Assembly: GCA_029009115.1 (NCBI GenBank)
Contig: JAQXJU010000064.1
Coordinates: 1 to 64,000 of the forward strand
Origin: Bacteroidales bacterium
GTDB lineage: Bacteria > Bacteroidota > Bacteroidia > Bacteroidales > UBA932
DNA length: 64,000 nucleotides
Direction: 5' to 3'
The notes under the pieces are model-generated. The model was not told the origin of the DNA. It ran no database searches and saw only the letters and a program-made list of their open reading frames with translations. The position numbers and the translations under genes are program-made. This document shows, piece by piece, positions 1,261 through 46,625 of this stretch (within the stretch, counting starts at the first letter, position 1; every line of letters begins with the position of its first letter).

Positions 1261-1475
1261 CGTGAAATTCACCTTCGGGGCGCACCCCCACCAGAAGGCC
1301 TTCAGAGGCCTATGGTCTGTGGAGGTGGAATGACTTTGTGTCCACCTCGGCGCCGCACCACCACTACAGGCACCTCAGAGGCACATTGCTTTTCAAGGTG
1401 AATTTCACCGAGAAGGGTGACCCCAGCCAGAAGCACCTCAGAGGCACATTGCCCTCAGAGGTGAATTTCACCGGG
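1261..1475 (+). repeat. Dispersed palindromic repeat element, copy A (63-bp period)
   Basis: GTGAAATTCACC at 1262-1273, GGTGAATTTCACC at 1397-1409 and 1460-1472. Hairpin GAGGTGGA(N11)TCCACCTC at 1322-1348. Colinear with the reverse complement of 45961-46245. Confidence 0.9.
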
Positions 1476-1510: not shown

Positions 1511-2461
1511 TCAGAGTTTGGCAATCTCTTCGACAGAGAACCCAGTACACTTGGCGATCGTCAGGACATCAACTCCTGCGGCCTTCAGTGCGGCCACTGT
1601 CGCAAGGAGTTTAGCCTTTCCCTCAGCGATCCCTGCCTCGCGGCCCTCGGCGATCCCCTCCTCCCGGCCTTGGGCTACACCTTCCAAGAGCCCCTTCTTG
1701 TAGCTTTCTTCAGCAGCGTATTCGATCGAGTTGTAGTAACTGAAGTCCATATCGATAGAGTGTTTGTACTGTTCGTATTCTTCGGGACGCAAGTTACAGA
1801 TTTTTGCAATCTCAAACAAATGGTCAAACTCCTTCTCTGTGAAGACACCGGGCTGCTCCGAAAGCTGCTGGATATTCTTGAACAGATACATCCATTTGTC
1901 GTAAGGGGTCTCAATTTCGGATTCCGACTTGTTGAAGCGAGCAATCTCGAGGAAGATTATTTGAAGTTTGTCCATCAGCAGTTCCCCGGACTTGTCCTCT
2001 CGAAGGCTGTACGAGGAATGGTACCGTTCTTCGGGCCAGTCTTTGTTGTGCTCGAGCTGGAAGTTCAGCACTCCGATGAGTTTTACAGACTTCAGGCAAT
2101 AGTTCCAGCGCTGGGCTGCGAGACCCGATTCGGGCTGCTTTGCAAGTCGGCCCTGCTCCATAATGGGATACGACAGATAGTAGAGGGCTCTGTCGCTGAA
2201 GTATCGCTCCCGCCCGAGTTGCATCTCGACGATGTATTCCTCGCCCTTGTCCGTCCTGACGAACACATCGAACGTTACTCTTTTGTCGTCCTTGGAAGGG
2301 CCGAAGTGCTCGACATTCCTGAAGGTTACATCGCAGATGTCCTTGTCTTCGAGGATGTCTTTGAGGAATTTGATGAGGATGTCCTTATTGTCTTCACTGC
2401 CGAAGATGCGCTTGAACATAAAATCGGTCGTTATCCGACCGTAAACCGAATCAGTCGCCAT
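1511..2461 (-). CDS. Rpn family / PD-(D/E)XK nuclease family transposase-like protein (PDDEXK_2)
   Basis: N-term TTDFMFKRIFGSEDNKDILIKFLKDIL; VTFDVFVRTDKGEEYIVEMQL catalytic region; C-term GREEGIAEGREAGIAEGKAK repeats typical of the family. Confidence 0.88.
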   Translation of the reverse strand: MATDSVYGRITTDFMFKRIFGSEDNKDILIKFLKDILEDKDICDVTFRNVEHFGPSKDDKRVTFDVFVRTDKGEEYIVEMQLGRERYFSDRALYYLSYPIMEQGRLAKQPESGLAAQRWNYCLKSVKLIGVLNFQLEHNKDWPEERYHSSYSLREDKSGELLMDKLQIIFLEIARFNKSESEIETPYDKWMYLFKNIQQLSEQPGVFTEKEFDHLFEIAKICNLRPEEYEQYKHSIDMDFSYYNSIEYAAEESYKKGLLEGVAQGREEGIAEGREAGIAEGKAKLLATVAALKAAGVDVLTIAKCTGFSVEEIAKL

Positions 2462-6826: not shown

Positions 6827-8662
6827 ATGAAACATTTCTGGAAGGTACTGAAGCGCTTTGCTTCACCTTACACCAAGTACTTGGGAGGTTCGCTTCTGCT
6901 GAACGTCCTGAGCGCGGTATTCAATATCTTCTCCTTCACGCTTATCATTCCCATACTCCAGATACTGTTCAATGTCAACGAAATGAGCTATGAGTTCATT
7001 GCCTGGGATACCGAAGGGATAAGCCTCAAGGATATTGCACTGAACAATCTCTACTGGTATGTTACTGAAGGAATGACCCAGTGGGGCCCCCAGAGGGTAC
7101 TCCTTGTTCTGTGCCTCTTCCTGTCGGTGATGACGGCCATCAAGACAGCCTGCTATTTCGGTTCCAATGCCGTTCTCGTGCCTATGAGAACTGGCATTGT
7201 CAAGGATATGAGGATGATGATATACGACAAGATTCTCGCCCTTCCCTTAGGTTTCTTCTCTCAGGAGAGAAAGGGAGACATCATTGCCAGGATGTCAGGA
7301 GATGTGGCCGAGGTCGAGTATTCCATCACCAACGTCCTTGAAATGATTATCAAGAATCCTGTTCTGATTCTCTTCTATCTGGGGACTCTGATGATGATTT
7401 CTTGGCAGCTGACTTTGTTCGTGCTGGTCTTCGCCCCCGTGATGCTCTATCTTATGGGAGTGATAGGGCGCAAGCTCAAGGCGCGCTCACTCGAGGCCCA
7501 GAGCCTTTGGAGCGACGTGATGGCCCAGGTCGAGGAGACCCTCGGTGGCCTGAGGATAATCAAGGCCTTCCTTGCTGAAGGAAAGATGTCGGCACGCTTC
7601 GGCAAGGTAACTGCCGCAATGCGTTCCAAGATAACCAGGGTATCTGTACGTCAGGCTCTGGCCCATCCCGTGAGCGAATTCCTCGGGACCGTGATGATAG
7701 CTATAGTTCTCTGGTTCGGAGGGATGCTCATTCTCGGAGACAGGGCCGGAATCGATGCTCCTACCTTCATCTTCTATCTGGTGATACTCTACAGCGTCAT
7801 CCAACCCATAAAGGAACTTGCCAAAGCAGCATACTGCATTCCCAAGGGGCTTGCATCGATGGAGAGAATAGACGTCATCCTTCAGGCACATAACGACATT
7901 GTCGAAAAGGCCGTCCCTTCAAGGCTTGAATCTTTCAACGACAAGATTGTCTTCGACCACGTCAGTTTCAGCTACGGAGACGGCAAGACTGTTCTCAAGG
8001 ACATCTCATTTGAGATACCCAAGGGCAAGACCATAGCCATCGTAGGCGCCTCAGGTTCAGGGAAATCCACGCTTGTGGACCTCATTCCCCGCTTCTACGA
8101 TGTCAGCTCCGGCTCAATCACCATTGATGGGGAGGATATCAGGAATCTGAAAATCAGCGACCTCCGCTCGATTATGGGCAATGTCAACCAAGACCCCATC
8201 CTCTTCAACGACACCATTTTCAACAACATAGCCTTCGGAGTGGAGAATGCTGACCGCGAGTCTGTAATAGAGGCTGCAAAAATTGCCAACGCCCACGACT
8301 TCATTATGGAGAAGGAAGAAGGCTACGACACCAACATCGGAGACAGGGGAATCAAGCTCTCCGGCGGACAGAGGCAGAGGATTTCTATCGCCAGGGCAAT
8401 ACTCAAGAACCCTCCCATACTCATTCTCGACGAGGCTACGGCCTCGCTCGACACCGAGTCGGAGAGGATAGTACAGGATGCCCTCGACTACCTGATGAGT
8501 AACCGGACTACAATCGCAATCGCCCACAGGCTTTCGACCATCAAGGGAGCAGACGAGATAATTGTGCTCGATGAGGGCAGAATAGTCGAGAGAGGCACCC
8601 ACGATTCCCTCATAGAGCTGGGCGGTTTCTACAAGAAGCTGTACGATATGCAGTCGTTATAA
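6827..8662 (+). CDS. ABC transporter ATP-binding/permease protein (MsbA-like exporter)
   Basis: N-terminal TM domain; Walker A GASGSGKST; signature LSGGQRQRISIARA; Walker B ILILDEATASLD. Confidence 0.93.
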   Translation: MKHFWKVLKRFASPYTKYLGGSLLLNVLSAVFNIFSFTLIIPILQILFNVNEMSYEFIAWDTEGISLKDIALNNLYWYVTEGMTQWGPQRVLLVLCLFLSVMTAIKTACYFGSNAVLVPMRTGIVKDMRMMIYDKILALPLGFFSQERKGDIIARMSGDVAEVEYSITNVLEMIIKNPVLILFYLGTLMMISWQLTLFVLVFAPVMLYLMGVIGRKLKARSLEAQSLWSDVMAQVEETLGGLRIIKAFLAEGKMSARFGKVTAAMRSKITRVSVRQALAHPVSEFLGTVMIAIVLWFGGMLILGDRAGIDAPTFIFYLVILYSVIQPIKELAKAAYCIPKGLASMERIDVILQAHNDIVEKAVPSRLESFNDKIVFDHVSFSYGDGKTVLKDISFEIPKGKTIAIVGASGSGKSTLVDLIPRFYDVSSGSITIDGEDIRNLKISDLRSIMGNVNQDPILFNDTIFNNIAFGVENADRESVIEAAKIANAHDFIMEKEEGYDTNIGDRGIKLSGGQRQRISIARAILKNPPILILDEATASLDTESERIVQDALDYLMSNRTTIAIAHRLSTIKGADEIIVLDEGRIVERGTHDSLIELGGFYKKLYDMQSL

Positions 8663-44586: not shown

Positions 44587-45792
44587 ATGAAAAAGAATTT
44601 CTTAAGGGAGAAAAACGACAAGACAGCATTGTCGATGCGTTTAGCGTTGAAATTGTGCATAACCAACGGCAGCAGCAGCATTGCTGATTTCAGCCGCGAG
44701 TTGAACCTGAGTGTCCCCACTGCAACCAAAATTATCGGCGACCTGGTTGAAGAGGGATTTCTGATGGAAGAAGGCAAACTGGGAACATCAGGAGGCCGCA
44801 AGCCCAGCATTTTCGGTCTCAATCCCGATGCCGGCTATTTTCTGGGCGTAGATATAGCAAGACAGCACTTTCACATTGCAGTAACCAATTTCAAAGGTGA
44901 AGAAGTGCTTTTCATTCAGGACATTGCCTACGTTCTGGAGGCCAGTTCAGACTCATTCCACGGAATCTGCTCCCTGATAAAAGAAAAGGTTACAGGCGCC
45001 GGCATACCATGGATCAAGATTCTCGGAGCCGGGATCAGTCTTTCGGGAAGGGTCAACCCCGAAAAGGGATTCTCTTTCTCTTACTTCCTCAATGACGAGT
45101 TCCCCATCAAGGACCTCTTTCAGATGGAACTTCAGCTCCCTATCAGCATAGAGAACGATTCGCGTGCAATGACCTACGGAGAGTATCTGTTCCGCGGAGA
45201 GGATGCCGACCCCAACACCATCTTCATCAATTTGAGCTACGGGCTCGGTATGGGTATGATTCTGGACGGAAAACTCTACTACGGAACGTCGGGATTCTCT
45301 GGAGAAATAGGACATTTCCCCTTGCTGGACAATGACATACTCTGCCGCTGCGGCAAAGTCGGATGTCTCGAGACCGGAGCATCGGGACTAGCTCTGAAAC
45401 GTATTATCTGCGACCATCTCAAGGCAGGCAGGCGTTCGTCGCTGAGCAAACTCTACAAGCAGAAAGAGGGAGACCTCAAGCTTCACGAGATTCTTCAGGC
45501 AGTCGAAGAAGAGGATATGCTTGCCATCGAAGGTGTCGAGATCATCGGCGAGACCCTCGGAAAGGGCATTGCCGGTATCATCAACATCTTCAACCCCGGT
45601 CAGCTGATCATCGGCGGACGTCTGATAGTCGGGAAGGATTACCTGATGCTCCCCGTTAAGACTGCCGTCAACAAGTATTCCCTGTCCAAGGTCAGCATCG
45701 ACACCAAGATCAGTTTCTCAAAGCTCGGCCGCAAGGCTGCCGCCATCGGTGACTGCCTGCTGAGCCGTTCAAAGGTGCTGGGAATCATCTGA
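44587..45792 (+). CDS. ROK family transcriptional regulator/sugar kinase
   Basis: N-terminal wHTH (NLSVPTATKIIGDLVEEGFL); GVDIARQHFHIAVTNFKGE; CRCGKVGCLETGASG zinc motif. Confidence 0.9.
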   Translation: MKKNFLREKNDKTALSMRLALKLCITNGSSSIADFSRELNLSVPTATKIIGDLVEEGFLMEEGKLGTSGGRKPSIFGLNPDAGYFLGVDIARQHFHIAVTNFKGEEVLFIQDIAYVLEASSDSFHGICSLIKEKVTGAGIPWIKILGAGISLSGRVNPEKGFSFSYFLNDEFPIKDLFQMELQLPISIENDSRAMTYGEYLFRGEDADPNTIFINLSYGLGMGMILDGKLYYGTSGFSGEIGHFPLLDNDILCRCGKVGCLETGASGLALKRIICDHLKAGRRSSLSKLYKQKEGDLKLHEILQAVEEEDMLAIEGVEIIGETLGKGIAGIINIFNPGQLIIGGRLIVGKDYLMLPVKTAVNKYSLSKVSIDTKISFSKLGRKAAAIGDCLLSRSKVLGII

Positions 45793-45799
45793 TTTCATA

Positions 45800-45926
45800 A
45801 GTTTGAGAGAGGGCAAGATAGGCGGTGAGTTTGAGAGAGGCAAGGACGGGCGCTGGCGTTGACATTTGGAAGGACGAGAGAAGGAGAAGCGGCGAGTTTA
45901 AGAGAGGCACGAGAGGCAAGGACGGG
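45800..45926. repeat. Purine-rich imperfect direct repeats (AGTTTRAGAGAGGCAAGGACGGG-like, about 3 copies)
   Basis: Units start at about 45800, 45828 and 45895, just downstream of the ROK stop codon. Confidence 0.65.
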
Positions 45927-45960
45927 AGAGAGGCGAGCACCAGACTCGGCGAACAGTAGA

Positions 45961-46245
45961 TAACCGGTGAAATTCACCCCGAAGAACAATGTGCCCCAGA
46001 AGGCCTTCTGAAGGGGGTAAGCTCGAAAGGTGAATTTCACGAGATTGCCCAATCGGCCTCTGAGGTACTTCTGAAGGGGGTAGCCTCGACCGGTGAAATT
46101 CACCTTTGAAACCAATGTGCCTCTGAGGGCATTGTAGAGGGGGTCAGGCTCTGAGGTGGACACAAATTCGTTCCACCTCCGAAGGCAACCTGCCCCAGAA
46201 GGCATTCTGACAGGGGTTACCCCGAAAGGTGAATTTCACGGAAAG
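45961..46245 (-). repeat. Dispersed palindromic repeat element, copy B (63-bp period)
   Basis: GGTGAAATTCACC at 45966-45978 and 46092-46104, GGTGAATTTCAC at 46029-46040 and 46228-46239. Hairpin GAGGTGGA(N11)TCCACCTC at 46153-46179. Reverse complement is colinear with 1261-1475. Confidence 0.9.
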
Positions 46246-46265: not shown

Positions 46266-46625
46266 TTGTCAATTAATAGTGAGGTTATAGCTTTGGGACG
46301 CATCGACTGGGAGAAGAGGACTGTCAGGCATATGATTGAGTTGTGGTGCCAGAAGAACCACGGCCACAAGGCTATGTTTGATATGGACCGGAATAGCCTC
46401 GGAGGCAAGGCAATGTGTGAAGAGTGTCGAAAGATGCTTGACTACTCTTTGGCGCGACTAGACCATTGCCGTTTCGGGGACCGGAAGACAAAGTGCCACA
46501 AGTGCACTGTACACTGCTATCGTCCGGATATGCGCGAGAAGATTCGGGCAGTGATGCGATTCAGTGGCCCGAGAATGATACTATTTCACCCGCTGGAAGC
46601 ATTGAGGTATCTGCTATCACCGTAA
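46266..46625 (+). CDS. Nitrous oxide-stimulated promoter family protein
   Basis: KRTVRHMIELWCQKNH...CEECRKMLDYSLARLDHCRFGDRKTKCHKCTVHCYRPDMREKIRAVMRFSGPRMI. Confidence 0.88.
   Translation: MSINSEVIALGRIDWEKRTVRHMIELWCQKNHGHKAMFDMDRNSLGGKAMCEECRKMLDYSLARLDHCRFGDRKTKCHKCTVHCYRPDMREKIRAVMRFSGPRMILFHPLEALRYLLSP

Follow-up and report, generated by a model that had tools for sequence, protein, structure and literature searches.

Between a ROK gene (44587-45792) and a YgbA_NO gene (46266-46625), both on the plus strand of the window, by which we mean the whole stretch of 64,000 nucleotides analysed here, lies an array of short palindromic cores with a hairpin among them. What is this array, and does it act on the genes beside it? 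The first-pass annotation had noted the same architecture at a second locus, in the same orientation relative to the flanking genes, and had suggested a transcript-level role as an untranslated region (UTR) RNA element, or else a directional insertion. The association found here is with a family of single-strand-DNA transposases, not with transcripts. RAYTs, the family in question, are REP-associated Y1 HUH transposases, which act on single-strand DNA.

The four cores of this array (copy B), their steps and the hairpin were confirmed at the places given before (Table 1). Matches to GTGAAWTTCAC begin at 45967, 46030, 46093 and 46229, in steps of 63, 63 and 136 bp, and GGTGAAWTTCAC begins at 45966, 46029, 46092 and 46228. 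Within the window, 7 core matches with one mismatch at most were counted against 0.91 expected, a number which was reached in no shuffle. The layout of the unit at 46092..46240 is that of the doublets adjoining RAYT genes in other species. Copy A, which as annotated has one core fewer (three against four), shows the steps 136 and then 63 bp and is inverted relative to copy B, judged by the orientation of its hairpin. Its neighbours are co-directional ORFs on the minus strand. One of them, directly adjoining the array, is a PDDEXK_2 gene (1511-2461, minus strand), that is, a transposase of the PD-(D/E)XK nuclease family. Beside copy B, imperfect purine-rich repeats (GAGAGAGGCAAGGACGGG and similar) lie within positions 45795-45960 between ROK and the array; these are distinct from the hairpin family.

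Table 1. Features of the two arrays in the window.
Feature	Position	Strand	Basis or remark
Copy B array	45966..46240	+	A core-63-T core-63-A core-136-T core; strand from hairpin loop GGTGGACACAAANTCGTTCCACC
Core 1, GGTGAAATTCACC, A centre	45966..45978	.	core search
Middle module 1	45987..46020	+	model R1 match
Core 2, GGTGAATTTCAC, T centre	46029..46040	.	core search
Middle module 2	46049..46083	+	model R1 match
Complete double-hairpin unit, 136-bp step	46092..46240	+	tail/arm GTGAAATTCACC, middle, loop hairpin, middle, arm/tail AAGGTGAATTTCAC
Middle module 3	46112..46146	+	model R1 match
Inner arms and loop, hairpin GAGGTGGACACAAATTCGTTCCACCTC	46153..46179	.	
Middle module 4	46185..46219	+	model R1 match
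Core 4, GGTGAATTTCAC, T centre	46228..46239	.	CGG next, instead of usual GAG
Copy A, same family	1261..1472	-	three cores 1262, 1398, 1461; inner hairpin ~1322-1348; loop on minus strand

The two copies belong to a large family. Copy B matched 111 times in G000, the assembly to which the window belongs (116 contigs, 2.04 Mb), and these matches group into 41 places including one 44-bp fragment; copy A, located via its cores, is an additional array. Eleven further places came from a search with a middle-module model. In total, G000 holds 52 arrays with 301 cores, together 20.0 kb or 1% of the assembly, and most of these are intergenic, lying between called genes. The number of units varies up to a maximum of 13 cores in one array, so that the earlier description from the two copies, of a dispersed element built to one plan with a variable number of units, is borne out. 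Many contigs start or stop within or close to an array, so that 52 is probably an undercount; the arrays also account for some of the breaks in the assembly, many contigs ending inside them.

The architecture is regular. Of 249 steps between neighbouring cores, 192 measure 63 bp and 48 measure 136 bp, hence 240 (96%) are exactly one or the other, and cores with an A and a T centre alternate in 246 of the 249 pairs. Once the hairpin loop is used to give the arrays a common direction, every 136-bp step (46 of 46) starts at an A core and finishes at a T core. Two arrays (L065 and L067, on contigs C17 and C4) consist of 63-bp units only and lack the inner hairpin loop, which makes their orientation unreadable. 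Conserved are the cores, whose invariance is somewhat overstated because they were picked at one mismatch at most, and a middle module some 33 nt long (CAATGTGCCTCTGAAGGCCTTCTGAAGGGGGT or a variant of it), while the linkers vary widely at constant length. The 136-bp unit can be written as a double hairpin, GTGAAATT-CACCTC-middle-GAGGTGG-ACACAAAGTCGTT-CCACCTC-middle-AAGGTG-AATTTCAC, and the 63-bp unit as a single hairpin, for which the palindromic cores act as arms on both sides. As in REPINs, an inverted doublet thus folds into one hairpin whose ends are invariant and whose interior varies in sequence, not in length. In a mutual-information scan, the two linkers of a unit showed no compensatory changes.

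Such regularity could also be read as a series of duplex-DNA sites for a nucleoid or other chromosome-organising protein, in which the two step lengths place the palindromic cores on the same side of the helix. The exact spacing and the nearly invariant cores between variable linkers agree with this, and 63 and 136 bp correspond to 6 and about 13 helical turns at 10.5 bp, which is an arithmetic remark and not a test. It leaves unexplained, however, why other species have the same double hairpin, built with different arms, next to RAYT genes. We regard it as very improbable. A secondary use by the host could still apply, as has been described for the REPs of E. coli with gyrase and IHF.

The tabulation of orientation against flanking genes had been named beforehand as the check on a transcript-level role. 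Both copies in the window do lie between co-directional genes, but the orientation they share is lost at the scale of the genome: over 41 arrays, 25 flanking genes have the sense of the array and 27 the opposite one (p=0.89), counts which are approximate because the simple codon-usage caller missed the small YgbA_NO gene beside copy B. Orientation is thus random, as the orientation half of the refuting condition set in the first-pass annotation had required, and a fixed orientation to genes was rejected. With neighbours that are unrelated and no match for the element in Rfam, neither the proposed UTR role nor directional insertion found support. A structured UTR RNA acting on the flanking genes, whether as terminator, stabiliser or riboregulator, could draw on the strong folding of both strands (about -65 to -68 kcal/mol for the complete unit) and on the position of 7 arrays between convergent genes, among 15 with both neighbours called within 800 bp (6 others are tandem and 2 divergent). 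Against it stand the random orientation, the missing Rfam match, the unrelated neighbours and the relatives' hairpins adjoining RAYT genes, which leave it very improbable.

The annotated peptide-reading strand fared no better. Only 13 of the 52 arrays, most of them short, can be read through without a stop in any frame, a 136-bp step does not keep the reading frame, and no clear codon periodicity was seen in the variation, so that a coding repeat was rejected. In Pfam, nothing matched the antisense ORF of copy B (45795-46205), which was scanned together with 33 array neighbours. No family recurred among these 34 proteins, which include products of TonB-dependent receptor, FecR and DUF5686 genes, genes that point to Bacteroidota as the phylum. 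Within this set, the arrays showed no association with any particular type of adjacent gene or with any other transposase. This bears on the idea that a different transposase mobilises the repeat and that the RAYT link is coincidental. The PDDEXK_2 gene adjoining copy A would be a candidate, as would a DDE transposase (DDE_Tnp_1_4), which adjoins one other array, but neither recurs among the proteins scanned, while the double hairpin is met repeatedly at the flanks of RAYT genes, in many species. We therefore consider this idea extremely improbable.

Cores spaced by 63 bp were absent from viral contigs, and a phage or viral origin was rejected accordingly. In the genome collection exact 63-bp-spaced cores were likewise absent, except for three isolated places in unrelated genomes. 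The relatives came into view through weak matches in a sample of 400 species of the genus. These congeners carry the same middle module between different, mutually complementary arms: GCTTCATGAAATTCACCGCGCGAG in G082, TGAAGCCAG in G399, TGAAGCAC in G243 and TAAACGACAC in G203. Among 44 matches that had been found by the middle module alone, 22 are flanked by arms with at least 8 perfectly complementary bases, compared with 38 of 880 random places (p=1e-16). Across these species the stems change in sequence while the pairing of their arms is kept, so that a folded nucleic acid does matter. In the 11 relatives inspected YgbA_NO was not found beside ROK, and neither a comparable nor an empty site nor an excision event was seen there. 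One place (L226, contig C94 of G270, 243-521 and 6982-7262) has two oppositely oriented pairs of middle-module repeats, which enclose about 6.5 kb and resemble the ends of a larger mobile unit.

Several congeners with the element encode proteins of about 300 amino acids with the Pfam domain Y1_Tnp, and a profile built from these has exactly one match in G000, on contig C12 at 1579-2532. The protein, P0001, has 318 amino acids and possesses the catalytic residues H79 and H81 (HuH) and Y138, which are invariant in A3. Against the NCBIfam family REP_Tyr_transpos it reaches E=1.4e-8, although its score lies below the curated cut-off there, as it does below that of Pfam. For its predicted structure (mean pLDDT 86), the RAYT-REP complex 4ER8 is the only PDB match at E<=0.001. 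P0001 has the HuH and catalytic Tyr motifs and, in its predicted structure, the Y1 fold of a RAYT. RAYT-like genes were found in 294 of the 400 genomes of the genus, members of the P0001 clade at 250 bits or more in about 43, and the closest relative of P0001, at 64% identity, is the RAYT of G381.

How are these genes connected to the repeat? Double hairpins of the form X-mid-X'-loop-X-mid-X' were counted 28 times in 59 RAYT loci (221 kb), where 0.6 were expected from shuffles; the loci had been chosen for their RAYTs, and the control was shuffled sequence and not other genomic regions. In the P0001 clade the double hairpins adjoin the gene; L250, L256, L260, L266 and L269 have them on either side of it. 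The outer tails GTGAAATTC/GAATTTCAC are common to these hairpins and to the element of the window, and the GTGAAATTC tail occurs 27 times in 20 kb of RAYT flanks as against 11 times in 62 kb from other parts of these loci (p=2e-9). For instance, CGTGAAATTCACCTGCC...GGCAGGTGATTTTCACGA adjoins the RAYT of G239 (L258), and G381 has an element with GTGACATTCACC...GGTGAATGTCAC (L230) and CTCGTGAAAATCACC just past its RAYT (L242). Repeats adjoin a RAYT also in G224 (L177), G023 (L228), G399 (L227) and G325. The gene of P0001 itself is without a standard GTGAAATTCACC array at its flanks and has only a diverged double-arm element on its 3' side. Over the 400 genomes, co-occurrence of middle-module matches with the P0001 clade is weak by eye (about 9 genomes versus about 6 expected). 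With at most 3 mismatches, a 21-nt sequence of the RAYT 3' flank is shared by G000 and G381 and lies 73 bp from the nearest core of the arrays L046 and L056. This sequence, CGTAATCGCGGAGACGCTTAC, is found beside RAYT genes, some arrays and hairpins in three species (L046, L056 and L240 in G000, L084 in G082, L242 in G381), and L240 contains two related copies of it 70 bp apart.

We conclude that the element is very probably a REP/BIME/REPIN-type non-autonomous hairpin DNA of a clade of RAYTs (TnpA-REP, Y1 HUH) in this genus. As no GT[AG]G tetranucleotide was identified at the foot of the hairpins, where GTGAAATTC is the conserved flank, we speak of a REP-like and not of a canonical REP element. 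The arrays would then have been mobilised by the RAYT of G000. This enzyme would bind the folded single strand of the element. By analogy with other systems (PMC2817692, PMC3116915, PMC8266576), it could cut beside the conserved GTGAAATTC/GAATTTCAC tails and join copies in elsewhere, and whole units may then duplicate locally, giving arrays with fixed steps of 63 and 136 bp. The 63-bp unit would be a shortened element, one palindromic core serving as arm for the hairpins on either side. More tentatively, a lineage of long-form RAYTs in this very species-rich genus might recognise its targets in another way than known REP systems do, reading the conserved GTGAAATTC tail and the conserved imperfect middle module and leaving the stem free, so that each species rapidly acquires its own repeat family, and the phased arrays described here might organise the chromosome; we hold this to be possible, if rather doubtful.

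The REP and BIME elements of E. coli and other Proteobacteria are alike in being numerous, intergenic, alternating palindromes of fixed spacing with a link to a Y1 HUH transposase (PMC2817692, PMC8266576), the gene of which has these hairpins at its flanks. Unlike these, the element described here is a longer and more complex double hairpin of about 149 nt, has the GTGAAATTC tail where no GT[AG]G was found, and is unrelated in sequence. With the REPINs of Pseudomonas fluorescens SBW25 (PMC3116915) it shares inverted doublets, invariant ends, an interior fixed in length and pairing but not in sequence, and tandem clusters; however, each half is here a long hairpin, and arrays of several units are the rule and not the exception. 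IS200/IS605 elements have the HUH/Y1 enzyme fold and single-strand hairpin ends in common with our system, whereas the repeats in question encode no transposase and G000 has just one RAYT gene. A further comparison is with subclass 2.6 of the TnpA-REP proteins from Bacteroidetes, described with 'atypical secondary structures' and without GT[AG]G (PMC6006769). It is likely from the same phylum and also has hairpin copies elsewhere in the host genome, but P0001, at 318 amino acids, reads THVH where the subclass has NH[LIV]H and YVVKNP where it has YIH[QN]NP; we note a likeness and do not assign the subclass. Because this published subclass is already atypical and without GT[AG]G, the present system does not represent a new kind. 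New, to the extent that the open literature was searched, are the double-hairpin anatomy, the conserved tail with freely changing stems across the genus and the degree of amplification in one species.

The biochemistry of REP recognition has been worked out for few RAYT pairs only, all of them from Proteobacteria (PMC8266576). A genus with RAYT-like genes in 294 of 400 species, a constant layout and different stems in sister species makes both the recognition rule and the turnover of repeat families testable. The results also correct the view that arrays of this kind are RNA elements specific to particular genes. At three further places in the genus (L166, contig C40 of G203; L167, contig C3 of G023; L160, contig C4 of G016), other RAYT genes precede tandem arrays built from short palindromes of quite another sequence, such as GCGGGAGATGTGACGG...TGTCACACCACCTGCA, so that several REP-like families coexist in this genus.
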